Assembly (NCBI RefSeq): GCF_964275005.1 | Contig: NC_092706.1 | Location: 27,828,781-27,892,780 of the forward strand | Origin: Diadema setosum | Lineage: Eukaryota; Echinodermata; Echinoidea; Diadematoida; Diadematidae | DNA: 64,000 bases | Direction: 5' to 3' | Shown: positions 18,267 to 64,000 of the stretch, one piece after another | How positions within the stretch are numbered: position 1 is the first letter of the stretch | Layout of the letters: each line of letters starts with the position of its first letter | Notes under the pieces: model-generated | What the model saw: the letters and a program-made list of their open reading frames with translations, nothing else | Told to the model about the DNA's origin: nothing | Databases searched by the model: none | Program-made: the position numbers and the translations under genes

Positions 18267-18925
18267 TAAGTGAACATCGTACATTGTACGATAATTTCCA
18301 GTTAAGAGAGAGAATGAAATGTGTAGAACCTCTCAGCTTGAAATGTGAATATATTGATTTGTTGGAATCTGTCATTATTGTCTTAGGATAAATTCTGATG
18401 TGATGTCTCATTTGAGGATACTTGTACAATGACTTCATCCTACTGAACAAGAAAATGTACAGCATGGCATAGTAATGAGTAAAGAAGACTTCGCAGCAGT
18501 TCATACAAAATTATAAGCAAAAATGATGCATTGAAATTTACATAACACAAAGTTACCCATAATGAAAGGAATGTTTTGTACAGCAATGGCTTATATTATG
18601 TTTAATAAAGAGTTAAGACATTCAAATCTCTTTATCAAGCCCCCTGAAAACTGAAAATGCTCTACATATCCTGACAGTAGTATTCAGGCCTTCATGATTC
18701 AGGTACATTGTATCATTTTGGCGCATGAAGTTGCATGTAATAAAAATTCTTCAGTATATTACTGATTGTTTGAAATTTCCCTCATTTTCAAATTAAAATG
18801 TTGGTACCATCATACCTTTACACAAAACGCCTTTTGGATGTCCACAAATTGACTTTGTGAGTGCAATGTTTCCATTTTTATTTCCCATTTCTTATGTCTT
18901 CAATATTTCTTGTATCATGTATAGG

Positions 18926-33128: not shown

Positions 33129-33141
33129 TGTATTTTGTATT

Positions 33142-33149: not shown

Positions 33150-33566
33150 CGACTGGCAAGACAAGCCTAGCCAATTTGTCCATTTTTCAATGCATTTTGC
33201 ATGCATGAGATACTCCATATAGCTCAGTGTGTTGTGTCTCTCCTGTGGTGGTTTGCTGTGCGATCGTTGGGGATTCGAAACAGAGTAAGTTACAAAAATT
33301 GTCGATTTTGAACCCATTATTTACTCATTGTGTCTTGTATTTAAAAGAGCTAGTTCCTTAGACTTACTTCTTATACGAATTTTCTTGAAAAATGGGAAAA
33401 TGTGTTTCCTATAACTGACAGAGTTGTGGCCGTCGCGACCACTCATTGGGCACACAGTACATCAATCATAGTCCCACACATAGCTTTTTGTGTTAGCATT
33501 TTTTCTTGCATTGGCAAGCTCCTTTTCTTTTCTTTTTTTTTTTTCTGCTGCCAGAGGCAGGGCTCT

Positions 33567-36044
33567 TATGTCTATAGGCCAGCTTAAAAAAAAAAAAAAG
33601 TCAATGTCAACTAGACTTTCTGAAAGTATTCTAGACGCTAGTCATTATCGATTCATTATCCAAATCCGCTACTTTCAAGCAGGATTAGGAGCTATCGGTA
33701 GAGTGTTGGTGAGTGCTATGGCGATGAATAGGTGCTAACACTGTTAGGCCTACGCTACGCCTTACACAATGTACGTAGCACAGTCTATACTCTAGTCTAG
33801 AACCATCTAGATTTTACATAGCCTAGGCCTACCCCCTTGGCCTCATTCCCCTCCTGTACATGTGGGCTAGTTATTTTGCAGTGATACTGTCCATGTGACG
33901 CGAAAGCTTGCTGAATTTTTTAATTGATGTGTAAATTTATTTTTGATAGGCCTAATCACTCCATTAGACTCTGTGGTCTAGGCCTGTGTTAGGCTAGGCC
34001 TATATTAGTACTAAGTATATAAAATAGTCTGTAGGCCTATTTGAAATTTGGGCTAGTTTCTAGACCTAGCTAGGGGTTTACATCTAGGTAGGGCCTAGAG
34101 GTTCTAGGCCTAGTAAAGTAGTAGAAGTTCTACTTTTGCAGGTCTTAAAGAAAGTTAAGAGTTGGCCCAGGGTACGTGCTCCACGATTTCACTATTTTAG
34201 TCCAACGGTTAGAACTAATCAACCGTATCAACCGTATCAGCGACCCCTAGACAGACGTGTCGTTATTGATATTGGTGTGGGCCTACAGCGCCCCGGGGTT
34301 AGTCTAAAACCTTCTTTGAGCAGGGAGGTGGAATCAAAGAGGTTGGAGAACCTCTTTGGGTGGAATAGACCTTGCTTTTTTAGGTTGTTCTGTTCTGGAA
34401 TTTGGACGCATCAATTGAAATCTTGCAATTTAGTGTTGACTAGCTGGATCAATAAAAAGCTAGGATTTAAAACGAACAAGGGCCAAGTGCATCTGTTTGG
34501 GTAACTATACACAGCCCAGGGCCCCAGTTGCTGTACTTCGCACCACATCTGGTTGGGATACTGTTTGGGGGGGGGGGGAGAGAAATTGAACCATTTCTAT
34601 AGCAAGTACCTACAAGTAATCAGAGTTGCGATGATAGTACTGTAGTGTAGTGTATCAAACAGTGCCAGTAAAACTTATAAGTTTTGTAATACAGTGTGTA
34701 AATATAGGTCTATAGTCACCAAGGCTGAAATTTCAGATAAGAAGCGTACGGGTAAGATGAGCAAACTGACTGTCATAGGATATCCAAGCAGAAATATTTA
34801 CATGTGTCAGTGCTTTTGTTGAAAACAAGTGCCAGTGGTTGAAGGGGTACACGTACTTATGAAAGCTACCCAGGCCTGGAATTCAAGTGAGTTACTTGAT
34901 GGAGTCATAACTATGAGTACAACAATTCTTTATGCTCTTTTTGTTTGTGGAAAGAACAAATAGGCCTTGTTAGAATGCATTTAAACAAATGGTATTTATG
35001 GACTCTTACCAATTAGATACCAGAATTTGCATAGTACCATACTCTACTACTTACAAGGTGTGTGCCACCCTATAGTGTACTTGTATGTAACCCCATAGGC
35101 CTACCCAAGCATCACGTCACAGTGACCTCCGGATTTCGGAGATGAGGAAACATAGTTGAGAGTGCTTGCAATAGGCAGGACACATGAGAGCCTAATGGAT
35201 GTGTGATTTGCAATGTACATTGTATAATATATATGGTACAGCACTAAAAATATTGTACATGTCTGCATATGAATATGAGTGGGGGTGATGGATTGATGGG
35301 CAGTCAACAGTCAACCGTGCCTAAGTCGATTTGATTTGGACTAAAGAAATAGATTCTGCTTCAAGAAATTTTGGCTTATGAAGATTGAAATTAATAGAAT
35401 ATAAAGAGAAGAGGATGTGAAAAGACTGTAGACTTTGGTGATTATTTGACTTTAATATGCAAGGTGAATGACTGTATAGAGGGTTAATTTGTTACAGAGG
35501 GGAGGATATGAAAGCAGTTCAAAGAGTGTTCCAACATTATTGTAGTATCAAGAAAAAAGTGCCTGCTTCTAAACACCAATGTCCATTTTGTTCCTACACT
35601 GTTTGGTTGTAATTTTGCAAATTCTCATTGCTCTTTTGTACTTCTGCACGATGAGACAATTTTATCTGTTCTATCAGCAGGGAAAGGAAGAAAAAGAGGA
35701 GAAAACCATGTTTCTTCAAGACCGAGACTCACACCAGCATGAGAATTCCAGCCAGTGCACACAGACAGTAAGTGAACATTGTACATTGTACGATAATTTC
35801 CAGTTAAGAGAGAGAATGAAATGTGTAGAACCTTTCAGCTTGAAATGTGAATATATTGATTTGTTGGAATCTGTCATTACTGTTTTAGGATAAATTCTGA
35901 TGTGATATCTCATTTGAGGATACTTGTACACTCACTTCATCCTACTGAACAAGAAAATGTACAGCATGGCATAGTAATGAGTAAAGAAGACTTCGCAGCA
36001 GTTCATACAAAATTATAAGCAAAAATGATGCATTGAAATTTACA
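33567..36044 (+). repeat. 8.74-kb duplicated unit, copy 3, left part
   Basis: Nearly identical to 24826-27300. It breaks at GAAATTTACA, where the 15.2-kb element is inserted, and resumes at 51255. Exon-like stretch A of this copy lies at about 35517-35768. Confidence 0.94.
36039..36044. repeat. Target-site duplication TTTACA, left
   Basis: TTTACA here and at 51255-51260 flanks the insertion. The empty sites in the other copies have TTTACA once. Because the element's ends read A...T, a 4-bp TTAC duplication with AACCC ends fits equally well. Confidence 0.85.
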
Positions 36045-36175
36045 ACCCAGTCCAAAATAAAAAGAGACTTTCCGAAACAGTCTACAAAAAAGCACTCGAT
36101 TTTGGGAAAAATTTGTTAAAAATTGATCCATCAATGTGCAAAAAATGGCATTTTCTACTGAAAATGATGCTCCAA
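36045..36175 (+). repeat. Unique terminal inverted repeat, left
   Basis: About 130 bp from ACCCAGTCC to the first hairpin unit. The inverse copy is 51124-51254. Small differences (for example AAACAGTCTACAAAAAAGC here) show the two ends have drifted. Confidence 0.9.
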
Positions 36176-37097
36176 GGTTCGCTAGAAAGCGAACCCTGGC
36201 TGCCCTGCCAGGTTCGCCAAAAAGCGAACCTGACTGCCGGGTTTGCCAAAAAGCGAACCTTGCCGCCTGGCCGCCAGGTTCGCCAAAAGGCGAACCTGGC
36301 TGCAAGGTTCGCCAAAAGGCGAACCTGGCTGCAAGGTTCGCCAAAAGGCGAACCTGGCTGCAAGGTTCGCCAAAAAGCGAACCTGGCCGCCAGGTTCGCC
36401 AAAAAGCGAACCTGGCCGCCAGGTTTGCCAAAAAGCGAACCTGGCCGCCAGGTTTGCCAAAAAGCGAACTTGGCCGCCAGGTTCGCCAAAAAGCGAACCT
36501 GGCCGCCAGGTTTGCCAAAAAAGCAAACCTGGCCGCCAGGTTCGCCAAAAAGCGAACCTGGCCGCAAGGTTTGCCAAAAAGCGAACCTGGCTGCAAGGTT
36601 CGCCAACAAGCGAACCTGGCCGCCAGGTTCGCCAAAAAGCGAACCTGGCTGCAAGGTTCGCCAAAAAGCGAACTTGGCCGCCAGGTTCGCCAAAAAGCGA
36701 ACCTGGCTGCAAACACTAACTGGCCGCCAGGTTCGCCAAAAAGTGAACCTGGCTGCAAGGTTCGCCAAAAAGCGAACTTGGCCGCCAGGTTCGCCAAAAA
36801 GCGAACCTGGCTGCAAAGTTTGCCAAAAAGCGAACCTGGCCGTCAGGTTCGCCAAAAAGCGAACCTGGCCGCCAGGTTCGCCAAAAAGCGAACCTGGCTG
36901 CCAGGTTCGCCAAAAAGCGAACCTGGCCGCCAGGTTCGCCAAAAAGCGAACCTTGCCGCCAGGTTCGCCAAAAAGCGAACCTGGCAGCCAGGTTCGCCGA
37001 AAAGCGAACCTGGCCGCCAGGTTCGCCAAAAAGCGAACCTTGCCGCCAGGTTCGCCAAAAAGCGAACCTGGTTGCCAGGTTTGCCAAAAAGCGAACC
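36176..37097 (+). repeat. 29-bp hairpin minisatellite array, left
   Basis: Roughly 30 units of GGTTCGCCAAAAAGCGAACC plus a 9-base linker, TGGCCGCCA or TGGCTGCAA. Each unit has a perfect 7-bp stem around a 6-base loop. Variants: three successive AAAAGG units near the outer end, TTTGCC units, and one interruption AACACTAAC near 36712. Because 29 is not a multiple of 3 and the unit lacks stops, frames of about 120-350 codons stay open on both strands; they are artefacts. Confidence 0.97.
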
Positions 37098-37720
37098 TCG
37101 CATACATCACAAAATCCTTTTCAAACAAGAGAAAATGTTAGGTGCATTTTGATCTCAAAAAGGCTATTGTAATTGTTTTCATCATATTTTCCTTCAGTAA
37201 ATGTGAAATTATCACTCTTGGTTTTGTGTATGAAGAGGTTAGATAAGTGAACAAACATTTGTCAGTGACAATCAATTTTACCTGTGTAATTACTCTGTAC
37301 TAATCGTTGATTTTAGCCCATTGGGCCATGAATAGATGTATGCCCGTAACAAAAAAAAAAAAAAAAACGGTTTTTTTTAAGTTTTACAAATTAAGCACTC
37401 AGTAAAGAAGAACACAACTAATTAAATGCAAAGCAAGGTCATAACCCTCTTCCGAAACACTCATAAAGAAACTTCTGCTCTGTAATAATTAAGTAGTCAA
37501 TTATTGTTAAAAAGTGTACATCTGTAACAGACACATATAGTGTGACTGTATGTGAGCTTTACAATTTCATGAGGATTGATTTGTTGATTTTATTTTCTGA
37601 TGTTTATTTGTGATTTAATTGAAAGGTAGCATGGAACATCTTGATAACTACGATTAAGTTGGAATACTTGTTAATCAAACTAGTTAGCAGTGTTTGTTTG
37701 TTTGTTTTGTTTGTTTGTTT
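37098..37720 (+). repeat. Inner inverted arm, left, outer segment
   Basis: Parts match the inverse of about 49915-50115: the CACAAAATCCTTTTC junction, the TTTTCATCATATTTTCCTTCAGTAAATG stretch, and GGAATACTTGTTAATC followed by TGTT repeats. The left copy has extra sequence between these blocks, including A-runs near 37350. Confidence 0.75.
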
Positions 37721-37729
37721 GTTGTTGTT

Positions 37730-40480
37730 TTGTAAATCGCATTGCACACATATTCAAGATTTCCGAGAAAGGCCTAAAGTATATGGAAATGCTAAATTGC
37801 GTAGATCTCTCATCTTTTGGCCACGGTGTATCAGGAGACAGAGAGTAAAACAAAGAGCATTGTTACTGTGTCAGATGAGCTATACAACACAAGCAAAACA
37901 TCTATACATGTAGATCTATATAATTATGGAACATATCTTGATTAGGATTAAACAAAAAATACCTTTAACTACCAACAATCCATGTGGTTTCAGATGTACC
38001 CATACCCAGTTCAAGCCAAGTCTTCCTTGATACAAAAGTAGTTCCAAGGAAACTATCAATGCAGATAATGATAAAGTGGCTTTTTGTCATGGTAAGGGTG
38101 TACAACGAAAGTGTGTTCTCAGTGGATGGACAAGATAGTGAGTACTGTAAAAAAAAAAAAAAAAAAAAAAAAAAAGCAGTTTGGAGATACATGACATATG
38201 TGTAAAATGGGCGGGCAGCTACATCAACCCCACAAACAACCTATGAGGTAGAAATACTAAGAATCCTACTAAAGATGTGATTACTAAAGGAAATGATATC
38301 AACTGAGAGAGAAGTTGGATTCAAAGGCACCCCTATTTGCAAATAGCTGTACCTGTACCAAATGCTCACACAGTCATTAGGCCTACTAGTATATAAGGAG
38401 CATAATGTGAGTATCAAAAGTACCATTGAATGCTTTAGAATACAGGAAAGTCCAATTAGACAGGTTTAAGATCTATGATTCCATTGTCAGTCTAGATGAG
38501 AAACCTGAAGATGACACGTCAGTGAATGATAAACTTGATGTGAATGTTGGGGATTTAGTGTTTTAGATGAATATCACATGGAAACATTTCCTGGTGAGGT
38601 TCTTTAAATAGGGGCACTAAGGGCAGGAATCTCAGGATCAATGTCAAGCATCCTGCAAGTGGTCACCAGATCATCAGATCAAATATTTTCCTTAAAAACA
38701 AAAAACAAAACAACAAAAAAAAACAAAAAAACACTGCCAGAAAAATCACACTACAAACAGTTGATGGCAATCGTGGTCAGTTTACACGTAGCTGGAGTCT
38801 GGGACTCGCATTCAAACTCTTTGCTCTGTAAATTATGTCCTTCATCCATTAATATTTCAATCATTCCATGTTACACTATTTTTAATACCCCCCAAAAAGT
38901 GAAATTATTACTTCAATTTTAACCATACAAACCAGTATAATTTTGTTTTTAACATGCTGAGAAATAGAAGATTTTTGAAATACTCACAATTCATAGAGCA
39001 AGGGACACCATGATGTGTTTTCAAAATCCACATTTTCAAAATCCACATTAAGATTATTATTCTGGTGATCATGATAGTTTGCTGTCAATTTGTTTTTATG
39101 TACAAATGTATCTATTTTTTTTATTTATTTCAAAACTTTGATCAGGTATAGAGTCTACAATTGAGATATGTTTGAAAGGATTTTGTTTGAAATGCTTGCA
39201 AAATATAGTAGGCCTACACCATCAATTTTTCATGTGTGGCGCAAACCATTTCTGCACTGCTTTCTGTGTACTGCATACATGAGCAATGGATCCCTAGATA
39301 GTTATATGGTGGCATTAATTAAATCTGATTCCAATATTGAATTAATTTCTTTTCTACAAATTAATATTCTAGACAATAATGTGTTTGTCAAAATGAAATA
39401 GGCTACAACATGACCAACTGACAAGCTAATTTACCATGAAAGGATATTTCTTTGGATAATGTAATCACCCTGTTGCTCAGTGAAGCATGAACTGTATGCA
39501 AGGTGATGATTTGGGGAAGGTTTTTGCAGATTTCAGTAAAAAAATGTGATTGTCATCTCAAATTATGAAGATTAAGACCCTACAGCACGAGAAGTCACTG
39601 AATTCTGGTAAAGGGGTCTTAAAATAAATCCATCAAAATAATAAAATTAATAACGATTTCAAAACGTACGTCTGTAATGGAAATTTTGTACATCTGTAAA
39701 ATACTGTACGTCCGTAACACAAAAAGGGTGCAATTAATTGCCAATTTAAAAAAAAAAAAATTCTTACTTTCTGCACTTTTGGGTTGTTTCACATCTAATT
39801 GAAAATGAAAAGAATGAATTTGCTGGAAAGTACCCCACAATTCACAGAGTTTTCCACTTTACATTCCAATGTCAGAAATTTCAATTCATGCGAGTACGTC
39901 TGTAACGGTCTGTCATCATATCAAGGTCAAAGTATTGATCATATTGAATATAATTTTGTGATCACTTTACCTTCGAGATGGATGTTAGAAATTAAAAGCA
40001 TCAAATCTTGTGAATGAAATCAAGTCTAGTTGTTAGAGCTTTTTAAAGTGTACGAAATGTATGTTTGTAATTATGGAATTGCCCGTAAAAGACAATGAAA
40101 ACAAGAGAGAAAGAGATAGATGGCGTTTCTCAGCTCAAACACAAACTTTGATGCACTACAGATTGAAAAGTAGTGACATTACTTCAAATTTTTTTTAATG
40201 TATCAACAGAAAATATACTTCTGCTGATATTTTGAAGCCTGATACGCAGTTTTACCGCTGTGATGTGTCTCCTTAAAATGAAGAAAATGAAAGGAAGGTA
40301 GGATTCCCTCCATAGGCTCACATGTTATGAAGCTTGCGGTTTCATTATTAAAATGGCTGCCGTTGGGCTCCATGTGAGGCCCCATGGCGTACTACATCCA
40401 TTTTTGTGTGAAATCGCGAGAGTATACACCCTCTTAGCCTAGCTATGTATACTATTTGCTCTGAATTAATAAACGCAACT
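37730..40480 (+). other. Left-arm-only block of the foldback element
   Basis: About 2.7 kb with no counterpart in the right arm: either inserted here or deleted there. It holds an A-run of about 26 at 38150-38175, a decayed coding remnant (38460-38700), and repeated TACRTCYGTAA motifs between 39665 and 40085. Otherwise it is AT-rich and without convincing genes. Confidence 0.6.
38460..38700 (+). pseudogene. Decayed coding remnant, C-terminal-domain-like
   Basis: One frame reads RFKIYDSIVSLDEKPEDDTS and on to VNVGDLVF then a stop. Two bases into the next frame it continues VLDEYHMETFPGEVL, a stop, then GSMSSILQVVTRSSDQIFS. The order VGDLV...FPGEV...SDQIF resembles the C-terminal part of many transposon-derived or uncharacterised invertebrate proteins (VGDxV...YPGxV...DxIFY). 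That resemblance is from memory. A frameshift plus a stop mark it as dead. It may be captured sequence or a remnant of the element's own gene. Confidence 0.4.
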
Positions 40481-40489
40481 TTTCTGGAA

Positions 40490-42772
40490 GACGTTTATCA
40501 CAGGGCTTTGGAAACGACTTTTGATAGTGGGCATGCATGGAAAGCCTTTTTGTAATTCGCGGAAAGATGATAAACGCAGCCTTTAGGCCTATGCTTCTCC
40601 TATATTTTCTATATCGCACCTGAGAACTGGATTGTATTCAGCTATTGATAGATAGCCCTGCTTGTGGTGTGTGTGTGAGTGTGTGAACATACTTACATAC
40701 AGTAATTAGCCATACATGGCCTTGCACATGCAAAGTTTGTATGTGCTAGGCTTTGCATTATGCGTAACAAGTTTGAATATTTTGCACACTACACAGCATG
40801 CACATGAAGTGGAACATTATCATTTAATGCAATTTACGTGTAATGGTAAAGCAAGAACTGTAACTACCGGTACACAATCAATGTAATATTTTGCAACAAC
40901 ATTCCCGCATGCATATTGATCAGAAGAAAGCTATATAAAGTTATAGGGCCAGTACCAGGTATCGCACAAACATTTAATACGTACAGTCCAAATAACGTCA
41001 TTGACAAACACAAGTAAGTCAAATGCTCACAACTCAAAAAAGGATATAGTTCTGGACACTCAATCAAAATGTTTATGCACAGCTCCTAATCATTGCATGA
41101 TCGCCATCCAGTGCACCACTGGCCACATCCTGTGAAGTGAACAGTTTACAAGAGAATATGGGATAGACTTACAGTTGTACAAACTACTATGACATCCGTT
41201 TAGCAATATTTGTGAGTCAGGACACCGCTCTCTTATCACAGTCGTCATCTTATGGCGAGTGCTCTTCTTCAGATGGCCATGTTCACGATGAGCAACATAT
41301 ATATGCTGGTTTCAGAGGATTTATATTGTGGGGATAGAAAGTGTGGAACAATGTCTGGCCTATGTCCATCAGTGCAGGGGTCAGAAAAGGTCAAGACCTA
41401 GCCAACTGCCAAATCCGCAGAGGGTTCAGTGAGTGGAATGTGATAATTCAGACACACTAGCACAGTGCCTGCACTACATTGTAGCTGTACAGTTCTCATT
41501 GCAGTGTGTCTGCAAAACCAAGGCCATAGACAATGTTTTGGTGGGACAAAGCCACTTGTATGAAATATATTAAACTAACAATCCCACCTCATCCCTGCTC
41601 GTGGATATACAGTTCTGTATCATACACTTGAACATTAAAGGGGATGGCTAGTAACTGTTCAGTGGGAATCAGTGGGAATGCTGGGGGATGATCAAGGATT
41701 GCAACAATCACCCCTCAGCATTCCCACTGATTCCCACTGATCAGTTTGGTAAGAGTAGCCATCCCCTGTAAGTATGCATTTCAGTTAATTGAAACAGGTT
41801 TGTTTAGTATTTGTTAGTTCATGTGTTTGCTTGTTTTGGTGATCATGGCGATCATGGAAATTTATACACGTCATGAAACACAACTGAAACATGTTTATTT
41901 TTTGTGGGCTTGTTTTTGGAGATGGCCTGTGTTCATGGATATTTGACAGAACTACATAATCATACCCAATTTAAGGATAACTGTGAAGATAAAGGCAATT
42001 TTGATTTTGATATTTTACATAGAGATAAACATGGTTTTGCTATTGTCCTGTCGCAAATATAACTTTAATTCCCAGTAATTGGTCCTTTTTAAACCTGGTT
42101 AAATTAAACCACTTGTGATGTTACTCTATTCCAAATATCAGGATACTCTTTTGCATTTTTTCATATGTCAGTGTGCTTTCACTGAACAGACAGGTCGCGG
42201 GCGCAGTGCGGCTTGCTGTGGCGAAATTAGTAGTCCCAGAATACTGTATGGTGTCTTCAAGGAGACAAATTGAAAACAGCATCCATATCCATTATCGGCC
42301 TGTAATAAACATATGCCTTGTATCAAAACATTGTTTGGGCAATATGCTTTTGGTGAAAAATGATTTAAATATTTCAAAAAATAATGGTTTGGGTAACTAA
42401 CAGGAGAATAAATTGGAACTATGAGAATGGTGCAAATTGTACACTACTAGGGTACAAAATGAGTGCTGAATTCACAAATATTATGAAGGCATTAGCATTC
42501 AAAATGGGGATCCCAATTGTTTAAACAATGCAGCAAAGATGTGTCGTGTCCAAAATCCAATTCGTATTGGAATTCATGAATGACTAATAACTGTTATGGA
42601 GATACATTTAATGTTTTTACCCTCAGGCTGACCTAAAAATCATGATTCAAAATGGACGGAGGGGCTAATATTCATTATAGACATTGCTTCTGAAAGCTTT
42701 GTTTACAAGAGGAGATTCCTACAGTACGTGTTGGCCTATACTTATTCGTAATCTGTATTTTCTGACATCAGT
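40490..42772 (+). repeat. Inner inverted arm, left, inner segment
   Basis: Diverged inverted match to 47172-49910. Landmarks shared in inverse order are GCAGCCTTTAGGCCTATGC, GAGAACTGGATTGTATTCAGC, GCACAGCTCCTAATCATTGC, AATCAGTGGGAATGCTG, AGGATACTCTTTTGC and AATCTGTATTTT. Divergence and independent small insertions are far greater than in the terminal arrays. No gene is supported. Confidence 0.75.
41662..41747 (+). repeat. Long hairpin (left arm)
   Basis: CAGTGGGAATCAGTGGGAAT...GGGG pairs with CCCC...ATTCCCACTGATTCCCACTG over about 30 bp with few mismatches and a short loop. The right-arm equivalent at 48105-48440 has a much longer loop. Confidence 0.75.
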
Positions 42773-43946
42773 CTTAACTTTTTTGTGTGTGCGTGTGTTT
42801 CTTTTACTTTCACCATTCTGCTTTCCTAAGTTGTGTGTTTGTACTCCTTATAGCGTCTCCGTTTGTTGCAACTTCAATTTTTCTTGATACTGAAATTTAA
42901 TAGCATTGACTTGATTCTTTGTTATTATTTGATAGTTAACAAGAATTTGAACGTCTACAGTGTAAAAAAAAAATCATGGTAAATGAAAAGCTTTTCTTGG
43001 TTTTTATTTTTGGCGATGAGCTTCCAATCTGTGTGGATGTAGCTCTTTCTTTTTCTTTCCTTGCTGTCTGTCTTAGCTTATCCATCATTTTCTTTGTCCA
43101 TTCCTATCTCATCTGAGGTTGATTCTGATTTCAGTTCGATGAAGCAATTTGGAGACTGAAGTTGTTGTTTTTTTTGTACATAATAGTCATCAATGGTACC
43201 ATTTAATGGAATTGTTAAAAAAAACAGATAAACACACCAATTTTCTATCTTACTGACAAGAGTTAATTTTTCTTTTCATATCTTTGAGGTAAGGCAATGT
43301 CTGCACGGAGTTATACACCTTGAGCTATACCTTGCTAATCTTTATCCTTGTTAATCTTTATCCCTATGATATGTCATTCTGTCTCATTATGTTTTATATT
43401 ATCTTGTCATATTTTCCCACTGTTCCTCCCCTTATGTTATTTACAGTATTGTTTTATTTCATCTCATCTTCCATCTTTCCTCCCCTTTTATCCTCTGTCA
43501 ATCATCATTTTCCCTTTTTATGATTCCATCATCTTCTCTTCTTATTCGTTGTTAAGTGTTATTTCTCTCTGTATATCAATTTGAACGGTTTTCATCCCGT
43601 GATATGGACTCTTTTCGATGAGTCCCCTTGAAGACACGCGTATAAAGCTTTTACGGGCTAATTTTGCCCCAGCTAGCCACACCGCACCTGTGATCTGATT
43701 GTTTAGCAAAAGCCTGTTTGGAATACGAGAAGTACAGAGGTTACACTCTAGAAAGATATGTTCGTACAGGGTGGGTCGTGGCTCAAAAAAAAAAAAAAAA
43801 AAAAAAGGCCTAACCTGTTTCCCATGGTCAATTTCTGCAATATTTGTTATCAGTAATTTAGATGCGCCATTTTCTAAGAAAAACAATACCAAGAATGATC
43901 GTCAATTTTGGTCGAGTAGTTTTCGTTTTATGCTACAAATCATACT

Positions 43947-44392
43947 GTGGAAGGAAGCCCCACCGCCATGCTTATCTACCGATGAACGCCATGGTGGGGC
44001 TGAATTCATGAGTAGGTTTAGGCCTATAAAGCAGGCGAGTCGCCGTAGTATTAGTACAGACACGCAGTGGTGGTGGTGGGGCTATCGTGAAATAGGCCCC
44101 ACCGCAGTGCGCGTGCCCTGTACCCGTGTGTTTATAGCAAGCAAAGGTAGGTCCTAGGGTTTAGGGTTAGGTAGGGTTGTATTTATGGTTAAATTGGCCG
44201 TAAAATTAGTCGAGGGACATATTAGGAAGTCATTTTCGCCGCATTCACGAGTATTGACTATGGAAGGCAGCCCCACCGCCGTGCTTACCTACCGATGAAC
44301 GCCACACGGTGGGGCTGAATTCACGAGTATTTAAACAGGCGAGTCACCGTAGTAATAGTACAGACACGCAGTGGTGGGGCCTATTTCACGAG
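43947..44392 (+). repeat. Duplicated AGCCCCACCG hairpin segment
   Basis: A segment of roughly 140-150 bp occurs at 43947-44096 and again at 44259-44392. Both contain CTACCGATGAACGCCA, GGCGAGTC and ACAGACACGCAGTGGTGG. In the second, AGCCCCACCG (44269-44278) and CGGTGGGGCT (44307-44316) form a perfect 10-bp stem. Confidence 0.75.
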
Positions 44393-44507
44393 TTTGCCGA
44401 AAATTATGGATATCCAAGCGTACCACAGTTGTAATCTGTATTATTGGCAGTATTAAATCTGATACAATTCATTAAATATTCTTTTGTCTAAAGGCTTAGC
44501 CAATGAC

Positions 44508-44616
44508 AATAGTGCAGCGCCTGCTATGCGCTCGCTAGCTCGCTCCCCCGCCAGCGCTAGCCGCCGGCCGGCTGTCACTGTGCTGCGCTAGCATAGCCTT
44601 GCTAGCTCGCTGGCTA
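44508..44616. other. GC-rich island with GCTAGCTCGCT repeats
   Basis: A compact CpG-rich stretch in otherwise AT-rich DNA: GCTCGCTAGCTCGCTCCCCC, CCGCCGGCCGGC and a second GCTAGCTCGCTGG. Halves are partly inverted copies (CTATGCGC...GCTAGCATAG). No gene start is evident. Confidence 0.5.
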
Positions 44617-45416
44617 TCAACCAGACAATCAATATCGACGACTCCGTTCTCAGACGTCATCACAATTTAGAAGTGATAGTGCCAAAGTATAGAAAGTTTT
44701 CCAAAACCGAGGAAATTGCATCCATTATGTTAACAAATGTAGAACAAAAATCAGAACAGTAAAAAAACCCCACGACCATAGAATTACTTAGAATTTAACA
44801 TTTAATATTATTACATCATTAAGAAAAAAAATGTCCAAACCATTTTATTAGGTCTTTAATGTCAGGCCTTGTTTGATATTTTGTATCAAATTATAATGCA
44901 TGTAGTGTTTTGTTCTTGTTTGTATGTCATGTGTTTTCTTCAATAAAAACATTGAAAAAAAAAGAAAAAAAGTTTTACTAATCAGACTGCAATCACATAC
45001 CCTTTCTTGGGTGGCCGGAAGCAGCATACAATGTACTTTGCATTCGATGACCTGACCTTACCCAGAGACTCCAACCCCAAGCACCTTCTGATCTGGAGAT
45101 TCTCCCGCCCAAAACCCCTAACAAACGGGAGACTCCAAGTTGACGTGTGCGAAGTTCCTAGGGTTTTAGATGTTCTCTGGTGCTATCTAAGGCTTATTTT
45201 TTCAACATACGATAGCTATAAGTAAGAAATCCTTTCCACCGGGAGACACAGAGCCAGGGCGGGAGAAATCAAATCTCAATCGGGAGAACAGGAGATTTTG
45301 CGAAAATGGGCTTTCAGCGGGAGATCTCCAGTCGAAAACGGGAGGGTATGGAGTCTCTGCTTACCCAACCCTTTGTATATTAGGCCATGTCATTCATGAA
45401 ATGTAGGTAACGCGAC

Positions 45417-45580
45417 CAGTGGTGGATCCAGAGGGGGGCGCAACCGGCGCACGCCCCCCCCCCCTTTAATTTTCGTTAAAAACAAAGAAAATAAAAAGAA
45501 AATACTGCAATGAAACCCGGAAGTGGCACCAGAAATATTAGTCACGCCCCCCCTTTACAGAATTCCTGGATCCGCCCCTG
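45417..45580. mobile_element. 164-bp hAT-like MITE
   Basis: CAGTGGTGGATCCAG at the left end and CTGGATCCGCCCCTG at the right are imperfect terminal inverted repeats, each followed inward by a G-run or C-run. GCGAC flanks both ends (45412-45416 and 45581-45585). CAG-start TIRs with GGATCC are common in hAT-type MITEs, which normally make 8-bp duplications, so the family is uncertain. Confidence 0.65.
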
Positions 45581-46004
45581 GCGACCACCTGACACGAATA
45601 TGATCACCAAATGAAACAATGTAAAGCCTTATAATTGAGGTTTGTTGAAGTCAAGGGTAAATCAAGAAAATATTGATTTCAATTTTAGGGCATAACAATA
45701 TCACAATGCCAAAACAGTTTAGAACTCTGCTATTAAAGGAAAAAGGGGTAACTGAAAAAATTTTAGCAACTAAAGTATGGAACCTGTTAACAATATTCTT
45801 AATCAGGGGTCCTAAGTCAAAACTTGTTATCCGTGACATTAACTACCACATTTCTGTGACAAATTTGTTCTGCGCCAATCCAATCATGTAAGGATTTCAT
45901 TACAACAGCTATAATTGCAATTTGGCACTCATAACAAGTTTCATGAAAAATGCCCTGGACACTATACTTTCTCAATGCAGGAAGTTGTATGTTCACAATG
46001 AGTG

Positions 46005-46385
46005 CAGAGATGCCAAGTTCAAAAAACTTTTATGAGTGAGATTTTTATGACTTGGCGTCTCGGCGCTCGCGCGCATGCGCACGCGAACGAGGAGGGTGTC
46101 CCACTCCCATGGTAGGGAGCTTTTTTAAATTATTAGCTTTTAATGATGCGATCTGGTGCATACTTCAGTGACTGTTTTTTACTAATTTTGAAAGGCAAAA
46201 GGGAAATATACCTTCAATTGCAACTACCAGGTATCACTTTAATCCTTTGAGCTATGCTCCTTATTTTTGGCCCAAATTGCAGACTTCACCAGATGCGCGA
46301 GAAAAATGGGTGCCATGCGTGAGATCGTGAGACAGACCCTAAATGCTCGAGTCTCACGCAGAATGCGTGAGACTTGGTAGCTCTG
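46005..46385. mobile_element. 381-bp TIR element of the CAGAGNTGCCAAGTC type
   Basis: CAGAGATGCCAAGTTC at the left and GACTTGGTAGCTCTG at the right are imperfect inverted repeats, flanked by TGAGTG on both sides (45999-46004 and 46386-46391). Inside are CTCACGCA/TGCGTGAG hairpins. No coding frame is present. Confidence 0.65.
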
Positions 46386-46996
46386 TGAGTGTCCAGTGTA
46401 TGCTGTATTGTGGGGAAAATATTTAACTTTTGCCCCTGTACAGTTCAGGGGTCAAAAAGAATGTCACCTTGATAAGACTTGGCCAAAACATTCACCAGAC
46501 TCATGGTCAGGGGAGAGTAAAGTAACATTAGCCCACTGTATCTGCACTTTGCTGTGTGCACCATACACTCTGTGTGCCACCAAGTTTGGTTGTCTTAAAG
46601 GGACCCTAAACTTTTGCAAATACATTCATTCTGGCATAGGCCAGTACAAACATTATTGTTCTGTCACGACAGCCAGATTAGTGAGATCCCTAGGGCTTAC
46701 AATTAATCAATTACATGGCAGTATAGCTAAATTGGATGAAAAGGATGAGGACCTCATATCAAGGTGACTTTAAAAAAACCTCAGCTTTCTATAAAATAAT
46801 ACCAGACGTTCTAGACATAAAAAAAGAAAAAAAAAATCATGGGTACATCCCATCATCTTTGCACTTTTCGTTTAAATAATTCTTAACACAAACGCAAAAC
46901 ACACACACACACACAAAAAAAAAAAACTTTAAAGAAATTGAAAACACTTGGATCAATGTATAGGACTGCCTCTCCACCTGAAAACTTCGTAAATAA

Positions 46997-47020
46997 TTTT
47001 TTTTTTTTTTTTTTTTTTTT
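46997..47020 (+). repeat. T-run of 24
   Basis: An uninterrupted poly-T tract near the inner end of the right arm. Other long homopolymers in the element are A-runs at about 38150 and 43785. Confidence 0.9.
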
Positions 47021-48104
47021 AAAGGTGCCCGTTTGCATAAATTGAGATTCTATTCCCCTCGGGAAGAAGAAAATGAATGTACAAAATTAACGCATGACGC
47101 ACATCACACACTGGACAAAGAGCACACGCAATAACTCAATTGAGCCTTCAGCTCAGTGAGCTATAAAAAGGATGTCAAAAAATACAGATTATGAATATCA
47201 AGTATGGGTTCCCTCCTGTTATCAATGTCTGCAGATGCAATGTAGCCCCTCTGTTCACTTTGAGTAATGATTTTCATATGTCAATGTGAAGGTAATTGCT
47301 CTCCATAGCAAATGTATGAGTCTCTATGTTGCTTGAACAAGGATCCCAATTTCATTTGTGATCTTATAGTCCTCATCAAATGCTAATGAATTTTCATTCA
47401 TTAATTGAGTACTTATCTTAATGCACTAGTATACTTTTGCACCATAGCGCATTCCTTTTGAATTTCTGATTTCTCCTGTTTACGTAATACCCCGCTCATT
47501 ATTCTTTGAACGGATGAATTAAATCATCTTTTACCAAAAACATAGGCCTACAGGGTACTGCCAAAGCAGTGTTATTGCTGTGTAGGCCTACATGCCATAC
47601 GATCGTTTCACTACCATTAATCATGGATATGGATGCTGTTTCAATGTGCTTTCTTGAAGACACCATACAGCTTTTTTGGGCTATGTATGCTCCAAGCAAG
47701 CTGCATCACTGATCTTATAAGAGATCAGTTGCTGCACCATGAATGACACACCCACGGCCCAACTGTTAAGCTTAATACAGTTATATATACGCCTGAGCAA
47801 AAGAGTATCCTGATATTTGTATGTCTATACGTAAGAAGTGGATTTTTAGAGGAAGCTTCTAGGACAATAAAGAAACCATGCAGCTCACTATAATTCTTAT
47901 TAAGCTTCCAGCATATGCATTCACATGTAAATGATCAAAATCATCTAAATTGCCTTAACTTCACAATCAACATGAAACTGGGTATGTTACTGTGGAGTTC
48001 TGTCAAATTTCCATGATCACCAAAACAAGCAAACACATGAACAAACAAATACTAAACAAACCTGTTTCAATTAACTGAAATGCATACTTACAGGGGATAG
48101 CCTG

Positions 48105-48440
48105 TATTACCAAACTGATCAGTGAGAATCAGTGGGAATGCTGAGGGGTGATTGTTGCAATCCTTGTGGGATTCTTTTATGAGTATATTATATATCTATT
48201 GTTGAATGAAAATTATTTGCCTCAGAATGATCTCATATTCAAGTAATGTGCAGTATATGCCCCGTCACTGTCAGGCATGCTAACCTGGAAACATTGAACT
48301 GCACATTACTTGAATAATAATTAAATATGAGACCATTAATTCTCAAGCAAATAATTTTCACACAACAATAAATACTGGTATATAAAGTACTCTATCCCAC
48401 AAGGATTGGAACAATCATCCCCCAGCATTCCCACTGAACA
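48105..48440. repeat. Nested hairpin with long loop (right arm)
   Basis: AATCAGTGGGAATGCTGAGGGGTGATTG...CAATCCTTGTGGGAT pairs with its inverse ending CCCCCAGCATTCCCACTG. The loop is itself an inverted repeat (AAGTAATGTGCAGT...ACTGCACATTACTTG type), so two hairpins are nested. The left arm has only the short-loop version. Confidence 0.7.
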
Positions 48441-49528
48441 GTTGCTAGCACTCATTTTGGTCCTTTCTCACTCTAAAGCTTTATTTCATTTGCATGCATT
48501 TCTATTGATATCACTCATTTTGACTCCTAAATTATAGCATTGGCCTATGGGAGTCTCACTCTCAACTAGTTTCCAAATATGGCAGCCCTGTACTGCCATC
48601 CCCTTTTATAATGTTCATGTGTATGATATATTCACAAGCAGGGATGAGGTGGGATTGTTAGTTTAATACATCTCATACCAGTGGCTTCCCACCAAAACAT
48701 TATCAATAACCTTGGTTTGCACACACGCTGCCATGAGAACTGTATAGCTACGTGTAGTGCAGATACTGTGCTAGTGTGTCTGATTTATCACATTCCACTC
48801 ACTGAACCCTCTGCGGATTTGGCAGTTGGCTAGCTCTTGACCTTTTCTGACCCCTGCACTGATGGACATAGGCCAGACATTGCTCCACACTTTCCATCCC
48901 CACAATATAAATCCTCTGAAACCAGCATGTATATGTTGCTCATCGTGAACATGGCCATTTGAAGAAGAGGACTTGCCATAAGATGATGACTGTGATAAGA
49001 GAGCGGTGTCCTGACTCACAAATATTGTTAAACGGATTTCATAGTACATAGTTTGTACAACTGTAAGTCTATCCCATATTCTCTTGTAAACTGTTTACTT
49101 CACAGGATGAGGCCAGTGGTGCACTGGATGGTGATCATGCAATGATTAGGAGCTGTGAATAAACATTTCGATTGAGTGTCCAGAACTACTGTATTATATC
49201 CTTTTATGAGTTGTGAGCATTTGACTTAGGTACTTGTGTTTGTCAATTTGACATTTGGACTTCATCAAATGTTTGTGCGATACCTGGTACTGGCCCTATA
49301 ACTTTATATAGCTTTCTTCTGATCAATATATGCATGCGGGAATGTTGTTGCAAAATATTACATTGATTGTGTACCGGTAGTTACAGTTCTTGCTTTACCA
49401 TTACACGTAAATTGCATTTAATGATAATGTTCCACTTCATGTGTATGCTGTGTAGTGTGCAAAATATTCAAACTTGCTACGCATAATGCAAAGCCTAGGA
49501 CATACAAACTTTGCATACGTGTGCACGT

Positions 49529-49690
49529 CAGGGCTGCCAACTCTCATGCATTGAGGTCCTTTCTCATTCGATCTAAAACTTATTTCATTTCCATGCATTT
49601 CTATTGATCTCACGCATTTTGACTCCTAAATTATAGCATTGGCCTATGGGAGTCTCACTCTCAACTAGTTTCCCGTGTTGACAGCCATGG
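49529..49690. mobile_element. CAGGGCTGCCAACTC MITE-like insertion
   Basis: It begins CAGGGCTGCCAACTCTCATGC and ends GTTGACAGCCATG. The left arm lacks it at the equivalent point (near 40730), so it inserted after the arms formed. A left-truncated relative is at about 48455-48590. Confidence 0.6.
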
Positions 49691-49914
49691 CATGTATGGA
49701 TAATTACATGTATGTATGTTCACACACTCACACACCACATGCAGGGCTATATCTATCAATACTAATAGCTGAATACAATCCAGTTCTCAGGTGCGATGTA
49801 GAAAATATAGGAGAAGCATAGGCCTAAAGGCTGCATTTATCATCTTTCTGCGAATTACAAAATTACAAAAAGGCTTAATTTCCATGCACACCCACTATCA
49901 AAAGTCGTTTTTTA

Positions 49915-50115
49915 ATATGTGTGCAATGCAATCTACAAAAAACAAAACAAACAAACAAACACTGTTAATTAGTTTAATCAACAAGTATTCCAACTTCCAA
50001 ATTTCACATTTACTGAAGGAAAATATAATGAAAACAATTAGATAGCAATTAGATAGGCTCATCAAATGCACCTAATATTTTCTCTTCTCTGAAAAGGATT
50101 TTGTGATGTATGCCA
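49915..50115 (-). repeat. Inner inverted arm, right, outer segment
   Basis: Inverse of parts of 37098-37720: ACAAACAAACAAACACTGTTAATTAG, CAAGTATTCCAACTT, CATTTACTGAAGGAAAATAT and AAAGGATTTTGTGATGTATG. It abuts the hairpin array. Confidence 0.75.
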
Positions 50116-51123
50116 GGTTCACTTTTTGGCAAACCTGGCAGCCAGGTTTACTTTCTGGCAAACCTGGCAGCCATGTTCGCTTTCTGGCAAACCTGGCGGC
50201 CAGGTTCGCTTTTTGGCGAACCTGGCAGCCAGGTTTGCTTTCTGGTGAACTGGCGGCCAGGTTCGCTTTTTGCCGAACCTGGCGGCCAGGTTTGCTTTTT
50301 GGCAAACCTTGCAGCCAGGCCGCTTTTTGGCGAACCTGGCGGCCAGGTTCGCTTTTTGGCGAACCTGGCGGCCAGGTTCGCTTTTTGGCGAACCTTGCAG
50401 CCAGGTTCGCTTTTTGGCGAACCTGGCGGCCAGGTTCGCTTTTTGGCGAACCTTGCGGCCAGGTTCGCTTTTTGGCGAACCTGGCGGCCAGGTTCGCTTT
50501 TTGGCGAACCTGGCGGCCAGGTTCGCTTTTTGGCGAACCTCGCGGCCAGGTTCGCTTTTTGGCGAACCTCGCGGCCAGGTTCGCGTTTTTGGCGAACCTG
50601 GCGCTTTTTGGCGAACCTTGCAGCCAGGTTCGCTTTTTGGCGAACCTGGCGGCCAGTTAGTGTTTGCAGTGTTGTTAGTGTTTGCAGCCAGGTTCGCTTT
50701 TTGGCGAACCTGGCGGCCAAGTTCGCTTTTTTGGCGAACCTTGCGGCCAGGTTCGCTTTTTGGCGAACCTTGCAGCCAGGTTCGCTTTTTGGCGAACCTT
50801 GCAGCCAGGTTCGCTTTTTGGCGAACCTTGCAGCCAGGTTCGCTTTTTGGCGAACCTTGCAGCCAGGTTCGCTTTTTGGCGAACCTGGCGGCCAGGTTTG
50901 CTTTTTGGCGAACCGTGCAGCCAGGTTCGCTTTTTGGCGAACCTTGCAGCCAGGTTCGCTTTTTGGCGAACCTGGCGGCCAGGTTCGCTTTCTGGCAAAC
51001 CTTGCAGCCAGGTTCGCTTTTTGGCGAACCTGGCGGCCAAGTTCGCTTTTTGGCGAACCTTGCAGCCAGGTTCGCTTTTTGGCGAACCTGGCAGGGCAGC
51101 CAGGGTTCGCTTTCTAGCGAACC
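50116..51123 (-). repeat. 29-bp hairpin minisatellite array, right
   Basis: Roughly 34 units, the inverse of the left array (GGTTCGCTTTTTGGCGAACC plus TGGCGGCCA or TTGCAGCCA). The inner units are more degenerate (CTTTCTGGCAAACC). It has two adjacent interruptions of GTTAGTGTTTGCAG at about 50655-50687, where the left array has one matching AACACTAAC. The long frames on both strands are artefacts. Confidence 0.97.
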
Positions 51124-51254
51124 TGGGAGCATCATTTTCAGTAGCAAAAGCCATTTTTTGCACATTGATGGATCACTTTGTAACAAATTTTTCCCAAAAT
51201 CGAGTGCTTTTTTGTAGACTGTTTTGGAAAGTCTCTTTTTATTTTGGACTGGGT
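51124..51254 (-). repeat. Unique terminal inverted repeat, right
   Basis: Inverse of 36045-36175, ending TTTTGGACTGGGT before the TTTACA duplication. Confidence 0.9.
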
Positions 51255-54200
51255 TTTACATAACACAAAGTTACCCATAATGAAAGGAATGTTTTGTACA
51301 GCAATGGCTTATATTATGTTTAATAAAGAGTTTAGACATTCAAATCTCTTTATCAAGCCCCCTGAAAACTGAAAATGCTCTATATATCCTGACAGTAGTA
51401 TTCAGGCCTTCATGATTCAGGTACATTGTATTATTTTGGCGCATGAAGTTGCATGTAATACGAATTCTTCAGTATATTACTGATTGTTTGAAATTTCCCT
51501 CATTTTCAAATTAAAATGTTGGCACCATCATACCTTTACACAAAACGCCTTTTGGATGTCCACAAAACGACTTTGTGAGTGCAATGTTTCCATTTTTATT
51601 TCCCATTTCTTATTTCTTCAATATTTCTTGTATCATGCATAGGTATAACTTCTGTGAATCAAGGGGAATGGCAGCTGAGGGCAGACAGGCCAAACTTGAT
51701 GTCAAGAGAGGGTATACACTGCAAAGGATGAGCAACTCGCTGTCAACAATGAGGAAAAGTGTGAACAAAACAAGGCAGTGATTTTTTAAACACATTTCAT
51801 CAGGCTGAGGTCATCACTCTTAGAAAACAAGGGACACACGAAGCAAGCAGTGTTTCAGAGCTGCAACAAGTGCATGGGTAGTAATAATCTCGGCTGCATC
51901 ACATGCATCCAAGTGTGCTAGCTACAATACTAGCACGTTGTGCTTTTCAAAGATATTGAAGAGTCCTTTGGATATTTTGCCCCTGTCACTTATTCTGTGT
52001 GAGTCATTTATTCTGCAGTATTAGCACTGATAATGGGATAATCAACCTTTTACTGAACCAGTGTTCAAGAAGTTACGTGTAACATCCAAAACCCTCCACG
52101 TAGAGATTGGCAGAAAACATATTGCAGAGCCCTGTTTTGTTCTTTTTCATGGGAAGAAATGTTCAGTCCATGATGTGAGTATGTATATAATGCAGGGAGG
52201 TGACTCACCTCCCTGGTATATATGTACACTGTAAAGCACCACAGTTTGAGTTTCTAGAGAGCTGTAGGACAATTATAACTTAAATATACAAGAGTAATCT
52301 GGCCATGAACATCATGTCTATGGACATGTTTTACTATATTTTTTCTTTCCTTACCCTGGTCCATTATACACCGTAAATACAGCTACTACTGTATTCATAA
52401 TCTCCAAGGTAACAGTTCACTGGTCCTTGTTTTGTTATTCAAACCACAAAATATGGTTTGTTACTCTGAAGGCTTGTAAGTCTCAGCCATATTCCATTTC
52501 AGGCTATCAACCTTTAGAATAAGGAACATTCAAAATAACAAACAGTTGTATTAAAGGACATCATCGAACTCAAAACTGCCAAGGTATATTGTGAGACATT
52601 TCATGTTTCTTGGTGGTAAAAAAAAGTTCTTTAATAAGCACTGGTTGAAATTATGATGATCTTGATCTTGTTTACAGTTGTGTAGCACCACCTGGGGGCA
52701 GATGAACCTGTGCTGTGGCAAGATGGCACTGAATTTGATTTCTCAGCAATTGAACCACTTATTTTTATTGATTTCATGGGTCCTGGGATAGTCCCCACTA
52801 GAAGGCTAGAAGGTAGTTACGAGATATGTAGTAAACCATATTTTCCAACAAGCTGCATCTGTTTCACACTAGCACAAAAGATCAGTAGATACTGCTTTGG
52901 GCCAATTTGCAGATTACATTACTAATCAGTTGTACAAAGTTACATGTATACAGTGAACACAATGGTGAATCTTTTTTGGTTAATATGTTGTTTCCCAATT
53001 GACATCGTGATATTGTAGCATAATTGAACACATTTCTAGGGCATTTGCATACATTTTTGGGCAAAAAATTAAAAGTTCTGCATGTCAGAAGTATCTGTAA
53101 CATTTGGTTACCTTAAACTTAATAAAGACATGTTTGTATGAGTAGATCACAGCACAAGTATACAAATGCAGATAAGTTACATGTAGATAAGCTAACTTTA
53201 TGCGTGGTTGTCTTGATATTCAGTAGTGTATTAGTACCTCTATGACCATGCAAGCTTAAAAGATATGCATGAGTGCATGACAGTGGGGAACACACACATG
53301 AGTATTCAGCCATAGATGTGGGTTAATTTTGAGCTCAGTTGATGGTATGATCTGGGATAGATAGGGTTTATGCAATGGGAAGAGAAACTTGGTGTAATTC
53401 AGATGTGAGTGCATGATGTTATCATGAAGATGTTCATGTCATCACTACATATGTATGTGTTCAGTCGTGCTGAACTGCAGAGAAGACATAAGGTATAGAA
53501 TACAGATTTCAATGTGGAGGATTTGACACATTTAGCGATAGGCCTACATGTCCTTGGAAGAGAGCATGTGAAGTAATCCTATTTATGAGGATAGCTACAG
53601 GTAGTTGACTGAAGGGTTTCCAGCAGACTGTCAACCAGTTTGCAATTAAGCATGTTACAGAGACTGTTCATTTGTAATCAGTTTTAAGTATAAATGAATC
53701 TGATTATTGATTAAAAAAAACATAAAAACAAATAGAAAAATCACAAGCAAGGGATTATTGAAAACATTACTCTTTGTTCACTGTTTTAATGGAGTCAATC
53801 ACACAGTGACTAGGGAGCTATGTATTGAGCAACATACAAGAAACAAACAATCAGCAGTAATGAATTATTGAACCTAGTAATTATTCCATTAGTTTAATGT
53901 TACATATATCATAATAATATGTAACACTTTGATTTACTCACCCCTTCTCATTTTGTAGGTGTAACTAGTGTTTCATAATAAGGAGTGTATACTAAGTACA
54001 CATGTAATTGGCTCTTCTGTACTCAGCAATGTGTGCATTGTCATAAACTGCCTTTTCATACTTGTAGTATGCTTTTCTTTTGCACATTTCTCTGTACTAT
54101 CATTCATTATATGAACATTTCTTTCAATATGAGAGCAACAAGAAAAGAGGTACAATGTAGGGGTCCTACATATATGTGAAAGTGCATGCTGTCTTGTTCA

Positions 54201-62676: not shown

Positions 62677-64000
62677 CTGGTTCAGTAAAAGGTTGATTAT
62701 CCCATTATCAGTGCTAATACTGCAGAATAAATGACTCACACAGAATAAGTGACAGGGGCAAAATATCCAAAGGACTCTTCAATATCTTTGAAAAGCACAA
62801 CGTGCTATTATTGTAGCTAGCACACTTGGATGCATGTGATGCAGCCGAGATTATTACTACCCATGCACTTGTTGCAGCTCTGAAACACTGCTTGCTTCGT
62901 GTGTCCCTTGTTTTCTAAGAGTGATGACCTCAGCCTGATGAAATGTGTTTAAAAAATCACTGCCTTGTTTTGTTCACACATTTCCTCATTGTTGACAGCG
63001 AGCTGCTCATCCTTTGCAGTGTATACCGTCTCTTGACATCAAGTTTGGCCTGTCTGCCCTCAGCTGCCATTCCCCTTGATTCACAGAAGTTATACCTATA
63101 CATGATACAAGAAATATTGAAGACATAAGAAATGGGAAATAAAAATGGAAACATTGCACTCACAAAGTCATTTTGTGGACATCCAAAAGGCGTTTTGTGT
63201 AAAGGTATGATGGTACCAACATTTTAATTTGAAAATGAGGGAAATTTCAAACAATCAGTAATATACTGAAGAATTCGTATTACATGCAACTTCATGCGCC
63301 AAAATAATACAATGTACCTGAATCATGAAGGCCTGAATACTACTGTCAGGATATGTAGAGCATTTTCAGTTTTCAGGGGGCTTGATAAAGAGATTTGAAT
63401 GTCTTAACTCTTTATTAAACATAATATAAGCCATTGCTGTACAAAACATTCCTTTCATTATGGGTAACTTTGTGTTATGTAAATTTCAATGCATCATTTT
63501 TGCTTATAATTTTGTATGAACTGCTGCGAAGTCTTCTTTACTCATTACTATGCCATGCTGTACATTTTCTTGTTCAGTAGGATGAAGTCATTGTACAAGT
63601 ATCCTCAAATGAGACATCAGAATTTATCCTAAAACAATGACAGATTCCAACAAATCAATACAAATGTATATTCACATTTCAAGCTGAGAGGTTCTACACA
63701 TTTCATTCTCTCTCTTAACTGGAAATTATCGTACAATGTACAATGTTCACTTACTGTCTGTGTGCACTGGCTGGAATTCTCATGCTGGTGTGAGTCTCAG
63801 TCTTGAAGAAACATGGTTTTTCTCCTCTTTTTTCTTCCTTTCCCTGCTGATAGAACAGATAAAATTGTCTCATCGTGCAGAAGTACAAAAGAGCAATGAG
63901 AATTTGCAAAATTACAACCAAACAGTGTAGGAACAAAATGGACATTGATGTTTAGAAGCAGGCACTTTTTTCTTGATATTACAATAATGTTGGAACACTC

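Follow-up and report, generated by a model that had tools for sequence, protein, structure and literature searches.

Our results show that a 15.2-kb element in the genome of the sea urchin Diadema setosum was inserted as one unit, and that 4 bp of the target were duplicated in the process. The element lies in a 64,000-nucleotide stretch of DNA (positions 27,828,781 to 27,892,780 of contig NC_092706.1, assembly GCF_964275005.1), and we refer to this whole stretch as the window. The element is most likely a member of a foldback-type family, which may represent a superfamily not yet described and consists of 13 complete small copies and a 77-kb relative with a DUF7869 gene. The protein encoded by this gene is the best candidate for the transposase of the family, to which it is linked through one element only.

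The insertion can be seen in the DNA that surrounds the element. An 8.7-kb host repeat occupies positions 16106–36044 and 51255–64000 of the window in two direct copies, a third copy that is split by the element, and one inverted copy; it contains tandem arrays of about 148/291 bp. The element occupies one copy of this repeat. The two direct copies without the element (sites 18537 and 27297) and the inverted copy (site 63483) are continuous through TTTACATAAC. Since this repeat also occurs in tandem and inverted duplicates, one could argue that we are looking at a segmental or assembly artefact, that is, an inverted duplication of host DNA and not a transposed unit. We give this explanation almost no credence. 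Three empty copies show the host repeat running uninterrupted through the junction, and the same ends are found with 4-bp duplications at 13 loci that differ in their flanks; for the unit as a whole, these results already contradict an artefact.

The length of the target duplication follows from the aligned ends. The element starts with AACCCAGTCC and ends with GGACTGGGTT, and its outermost A and T are part of the element: the base outside ACCC is an A and the base outside GGGT is a T in all nine aligned copies. A 4-bp model yields exact duplications in eight of these nine copies, compared with three of nine for a 6-bp model. Hence, the duplication is 4 bp and not 6 bp long. The original prediction had described a TTTACA duplication, but the duplication in the window is TTAC, and the longer match is a coincidence of this copy. 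A 6-bp (Polinton-like) duplication, which we considered at first, is ruled out by the aligned ends as well. Four further copies whose ends were read also have AACCC and GGGTT. Altogether, 4-bp duplications are exact in 11 of the 13 complete small copies, and the remaining two match at three of the four positions. Given independence and the base frequencies that we assumed, at least 11 exact duplications among 13 would arise by chance with a probability of about 1e-24. Two of the 11 should be given little weight, because C19 lies within a (TAA)n run and C12 is next to such a run.

From the outside to the inside, each end of the element consists of a terminus (about 130 bp), the array of 29-bp units, and an inner arm that is broken by insertions (Table 1). 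The inverted arms 36045–37210 and 50000–51254 are 85% identical across 1259 columns, and further inverted blocks, 74–96% identical, reach inward to about 42769 and 47171. Both arrays were independently detected by Tandem Repeats Finder. The inverted termini of three layers that had been predicted are thus borne out by the alignment of the arms, the inward blocks and the array units (32 + 35), and so is the lack of a visible transposase. Pfam found nothing at the curated cut-off in the six whole frames of 37102–50111 (one match, E = 0.58), and in ten single open reading frames (ORFs) of the element there were three weak matches (E = 0.13–0.46), all below half their cut-offs. Rfam gave no match in the window at gathering thresholds, and none of the 7996 candidates scored was a protein relative of the translated array and terminus. 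The description of the units as having perfect stems was overstated: the 11-bp stem is perfect in 24 of 65 units and the inner 8-bp stem in 45 of 65.

A search of the 912.7-Mb assembly (102 contigs) with the 136-bp terminus produced at least 34 matches. These sort into 13 inverted pairs that are 15.2–19.6 kb apart and one pair that is 76.9 kb apart on contig C71. The other matches are a copy on C3 for which only the left end was found, four ends that are isolated, and a short fragment. Three of the isolated ends were inspected, and their similarity is lost within the array or just before it; the fourth (C12:19022260), at which the terminus was not located by pattern, is outside that inspection. 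The terminal 29-mer occurs at 32 places (27 exact and five with one mismatch), whereas the reversed-pattern control occurs at none. A 601-bp core probe (46300–46900) has 14 matches of 541–603 bp, which are the 13 complete copies and the C3 copy; the other 26 of the 40 scored matches (774 candidates) are shorter pieces, mostly of a dispersed repeat of about 90 bp. Hence, the ends recur at many loci together with target duplications, and the large non-autonomous foldback-like family that had been proposed is supported by 13 complete copies with common ends.

The arrays of the small copies comprise 27–73 units if up to four substitutions are allowed (18 arrays in nine copies). Copies C16 and C12 are 99.2% identical over 19 kb, which points to recent movement of the family. 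Other copy pairs in the same orientation are 93.1–97.5% identical over their aligned parts, and C15a and C15b are 94.3% identical to each other; the 88.7–90.6% between these two and the rest were obtained in opposite orientation, unturned, and are not comparable values. No exact match to the 23-base unit pattern was found in viral contigs or prokaryote genomes, and none to the terminus pattern in viral contigs (sets to which the window's own genome possibly does not belong).

The inner arms have a longer history than the copies. For the 131-bp terminus of nine copies, mean identity is 98.4% among left ends and 99.5% among right ends. Between left and right ends it is 95.7%, and this value is the same within a copy and between copies, which rules out gene conversion between the arms. 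A 926-bp block of the inner arm behaves alike. It is present on both sides in all nine small copies compared (the left blocks of C16 and C12 over 762–784 bp only), with 95–99% identity on the same side and 88–92% between opposite sides. As these identities show, the inner arms are an old fixed inverted duplication, which predates the amplification of the family and has not been homogenized within copies. The third layer therefore stands for the small copies. It is absent from the 77-kb relative, where similarity to the small copies ends where the arrays end, and beyond the arrays only scattered repeat-like pieces of up to 782 bp are found. The original prediction had counted the kilobase arms among the inverted termini; as part of the common ends they are not supported.

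The 77-kb relative lies on the 89,393-bp contig C71, with family ends at 314 and 77203, and is 76,890 bp long. It has the same termini and arrays as the small copies and an unrelated interior. Its left flank (1–313) and its right flank (from 77204) adjoin on C19, at 26475789–26475973 and from 26475976, with identities of 75% and 84%. Because both flanks are continuous at C19:~26475974, the 76,890 bp are, judging from this alignment, one insertion into a diverged duplicate of the C19 site. A few hundred base pairs from the insertion point in the right flank there is an exon-like block that is highly similar between C71 and C19. It reads like part of a midasin-type gene, so the giant may have entered an intron of a duplicated gene.

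The two arrays of the giant have 46 and 64 units. The CpGs of their stems are intact in 97–99% of cases (105 clean units), compared with 64–82% in the left half and 85–96% in the right half for the small copies. This difference suggests that the array of the giant is younger or was recently homogenized. Our reading of C71 covers positions 1–73000 and 74500–79500, with 73001–74499 outside it, and the Pfam scan of the interior covers ten ORFs, three forward frames of C71:43001–53000 and one forward frame of C71:33001–43000. Tandem arrays with 188-bp and 61-bp units, rich in CCCATATGGG-like words, lie within the giant at C71:65429–66305 and 69792–71900. A 202-amino acid ORF on the plus strand (C71:44641–45246) resembles a ParB-like domain by its motif; it has no match in Pfam, PDB or NCBIfam, and we make no claim for it.

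The minus strand of C71 contains two ORFs that match DUF7869 (PF25273; E = 8e-30 and 4e-14), and the genome-wide scan finds three stretches there. Six exons between 18944 and about 6719, with GT/AG borders, can be spliced into 719 amino acids without an internal stop, a model in which additional exons are possible. A relative encoding a transposase was the copy to look for according to the original prediction, and with C71 we have found one that encodes a candidate. The protein has 58 homologues, of which the closest is from Strongylocentrotus purpuratus (63% over 65% of the query); others come from bivalves, amphioxus, cnidarians, a sponge, and Chara. Among the 29 aligned homologues D259 and D262 (DGMDQ), D344 (QADNC), and E383, D384 and D386 (GHTHEDID) are invariant, and the cysteine pair C199 and C202 is nearly so. 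We read the invariant acidic residues as a DDE/D-like pattern. Weak Pfam matches below the cut-off on C71 were not used (RFX DNA-binding in the first DUF7869 exon, E = 0.008; DUF3646, E = 0.017; RNase_Y_N, E = 0.021).

The domain occurs repeatedly in this genome, with 32 matches at 27 places, and there is none in any of the 14 control genomes. A 585-amino acid open frame on the minus strand, a distant DUF7869 relative, lies in a pair of loci on C6 and C12 that are 98.8% identical over the 4.6 kb read, a stretch within which the similarity does not come to an end. Repeated and nearly identical loci would be as expected of mobile or duplicated DNA. A search of the literature found no publication on DUF7869. 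The family was not recognized among the entries listed in further searches, which covered subscription journals thinly, so we do not claim that it is unpublished.

What the arrays do is a separate question. The unit GCCAGGTTCGCCAAAAAGCGAACCTGGCC can fold, and compared with 200 shuffled sequences, a piece of 291 bases from the left array does so far better (as DNA, z = −14.2). Much of the stem is conserved too. One could therefore argue that the extrusion of hairpins or cruciforms is itself the signal, with about 30 hairpins per end and a mobility enzyme that recognizes single-stranded or cruciform DNA. However, any palindromic tandem repeat folds well. If pairing were selected, double changes that restore it should be in excess, and we counted them in 717 of the 773 units of 18 small-copy arrays (56 units with gaps or insertions were excluded). 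Pair 9/20, a CpG and the most variable pair of the inner stem, shows 23 double changes, slightly above the 17.3 expected. The excess vanishes once repeated units are counted only once, with 11 double changes in 150 distinct units compared with 10.3 expected; shuffled half-units attain the observed pairing in 63 of 1000 cases for all units and in 481 of 1000 for distinct units. In the 65 units of the window, the same pair has three double changes. At pair 3/26, there are four double changes, all of them unpaired, whereas 18.2 were expected. One-sided changes by CpG decay are tolerated (the left CpG is kept in 64–82% of small-copy units). The giant, with 105 of its 110 units used, has too few changes for the pairing test. 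Hence, hairpin formation as the selected form is not clearly supported, and we consider it improbable that extrusion is the signal.

The conserved feature looks like a dyad in duplex DNA, which would best be explained as the binding site of a dimer. The core bases G6, T7, T8, A21, A22 and C23 as well as C11/G18 are 99–100% conserved in the 717 units, compared with 72% for C9 of the CpG. The idea that hairpin arrays form the functional ends thus survives in part. It stands for the arrays, which together with the terminus of about 130 bp are likely the functional ends because they are common to the only gene-bearing relative found. It is not clearly supported for the hairpins, since double changes in the stem are not clearly above expectation.

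Taken together, our observations are probably, and we say so with moderate confidence, best explained by a non-autonomous foldback-type transposon that moves as one block, a judgment that extends to the roles proposed for DUF7869 and the array sites. Either the DUF7869 protein or one of its relatives, since lost or not sampled, would be a DDE/D-type transposase; it would recognize the AACCCAGTCC termini, cut the target with a 4-bp stagger and mobilize the small copies in trans. Each 29-bp unit would be a palindromic site in duplex DNA (GGTTCGC-N6-GCGAACC) to which a protein binds as a dimer, and this protein would most likely be the transposase. Roughly 27–73 such predicted sites per end could help to join ends that are up to 77 kb apart, as has been suggested for the THAP sites of Galileo. 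That the arrays can fold into hairpins would be a side effect of their palindromic units.

Alternatively, DUF7869 could be a passenger in the 77-kb element, with the family moved by a transposase encoded elsewhere, for instance in an element with diverged ends or by a host-domesticated gene. There is a single gene-bearing copy, the pair of ends on C71 is the only one to enclose any of the 27 DUF7869 places, and a 77-kb element, the interior of which was scanned in part, may carry cargo. We nevertheless regard a passenger as rather unlikely. Allowing up to two mismatches, the first 19 bp have 72 matches including those of the family, compared with 98 for the reversed pattern, so there is no second family beyond chance. 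Moreover, the acidic residues of DUF7869 are invariant, its genomic copies are repeated with one pair nearly identical, and the gene is open across six exons.

Several points weigh against a DUF7869 transposase that acts on array sites. DUF7869 is tied to the family ends by association, because a single gene-bearing copy has these ends, and the gene could be cargo. A second transposase in C71 could have escaped the partial Pfam scan. The DUF7869 profile matched no solved transposase in the PDB (best match RFX5, E = 0.51), and the last DUF7869 exon of the giant finds itself and two sequences at 43% and 30% in the genome, but no close second copy. The duplication of the giant (AGTT/AGTG) agrees at three of four positions, for which alone the chance is about 0.06 under assumed base frequencies, and its termini are on average 90–92% identical to those of the small copies. 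Finally, base conservation in the arrays may reflect homogenization and not binding. The loop is conserved at 94–99% too; therefore, conservation alone cannot separate the two.

More tentatively, and with doubts that outweigh our confidence, we propose that DUF7869 proteins could be the transposases of an undescribed superfamily of animal DNA transposons. Its members would have AACCC...GGGTT ends, 4-bp duplications and, at each end, an array of dozens of palindromic binding sites. These arrays would make it possible for autonomous elements of about 77 kb as well as foldback derivatives of 15–20 kb to move. Similar proteins may be the transposases, missing for so long, of foldback elements of the sea-urchin type.

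The family shares the hallmarks of the foldback class, namely long inverted ends with tandem repeats of variable number (27–73 units per array) and several copies that have exact ends as well as target duplications. The TU foldback elements of sea urchins have long inverted ends, in which an array of 15-bp units is combined with an inner domain free of repeats, and their target duplications are 8 bp long; those of FB elements measure 9 bp. Compared by description only, TU and the window family, which likewise comes from a sea urchin, have long inverted ends with an array in common, whereas the family has 29-bp palindromic units, an additional terminus of about 130 bp and 4-bp duplications. Polinton/Maverick elements are giant, have AG...TC ends and carry polymerase, integrase and capsid genes. 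The small copies are like them in size and in having inverted ends; no Polinton genes were found at the Pfam cut-off in the non-coding window element or in the scanned part of C71.

Polintons have 6-bp duplications (PMC10045372), in contrast to the 4 bp and AACCC ends found here, where a 6-bp model is exact in three of nine copies. Tetris of Drosophila virilis resembles the window element in its three-domain inverted ends (outer flanking, tandem-repeat and inner) and in a middle without apparent coding capacity, but its units are about 220 bp and its duplications 8–10 bp long (PMC4079207). Galileo, of the P superfamily, is a tested precedent for transposase-binding sites within foldback-like repetitive ends; it is like the window family in having long, internally repetitive ends with several transposase sites, which are predicted in our case (PMC3688188). 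Galileo has a P-type transposase with a THAP domain; Pfam gave no match of this kind in the window element, read in six frames, or in the scanned part of C71. Sola2 shares the 4-bp target duplication, mostly AT-rich in that case, but has short inverted repeats of 12–21 bp in the examples given (PMC3627910). The domain of the candidate transposase is known to Pfam under the name DUF7869 only. Hence, the window element is a foldback-type DNA transposon with 4-bp duplications, exact in 11 of 13 copies, that fits neither the TU, FB and Tetris lineages (8–10 bp) nor Polintons (6 bp).

To our knowledge, foldback elements are mostly known as non-coding copies, and for many of them the mobilizing enzyme is unknown. 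In the present case, both sides come from a single genome: there are 13 complete copies, one of which was scanned and has no recognizable gene, and a 77-kb relative that has the same ends and a gene that looks intact. The question of what moves foldback elements is now directly testable. DUF7869, a widespread animal domain of unknown function, gains a concrete hypothesis, and the giant is a further candidate for the few giant DNA transposons known from animals.

Table 1. Features of the element and of its empty target sites, in positions of the window
Feature	Position	Strand	Remarks
Complete non-autonomous element	36044..51255		15,212 bp including terminal A and T (AACCC...GGGTT); from aligned ends and three empty sites
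Target-site duplication, left copy	36040..36043		TTAC, 4 bp
Target-site duplication, right copy	51256..51259		TTAC, 4 bp
Left terminus, ~130 bp	36044..36174	+	starts AACCCAGTCCAAAATAAAAAGAGACTTTCC; 34 genome matches; alignment of 20 ends
Left array, 32 units of 29-bp palindrome	36175..37102	+	GGTTCGC-N6-GCGAACC core
Left inner inverted arm with insertions	37103..42769	+	blocks 74–96% identical to right arm
Central unpaired region, 4.4 kb	42770..47170		no Pfam match at cut-off
Right inner inverted arm	47171..50109	-	inverted alignment to left arm
Right array, 35 units of 29-bp palindrome	50110..51125	-	unit count
Right terminus, ~130 bp	51126..51255	-	genome matches; alignment of ends
Empty target site (TTAC), host-repeat copy A	18538..18541		reads through without element
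Empty target site, host-repeat copy B	27298..27301		reads through without element
Empty target site, inverted host-repeat copy	63479..63482		reads through without element

Other mobile DNA is found elsewhere in the window. A Gypsy-like long terminal repeat (LTR) retrotransposon at 2813–9762 looks recently inserted, with 169-bp LTRs that differ by one mismatch and ACAAT on both sides. It contains one open frame of 1369 amino acids at 3705–7814 on the minus strand, which matches a protein of S. purpuratus at 65% and two other proteins more closely (73% and 69%); matches in Lytechinus, Diadema and Patiria are lower. A second foldback-like structure spans 11163–14926. Its arms (11163–12523 and 13518–14926) are 92% identical and the outer 31 bp, starting with GTATGGTTGAGGGG, are identical, with no target duplication evident. 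Lastly, an ORF at 393–737 on the minus strand reads like a Harbinger transposase of the HARBI1 type.

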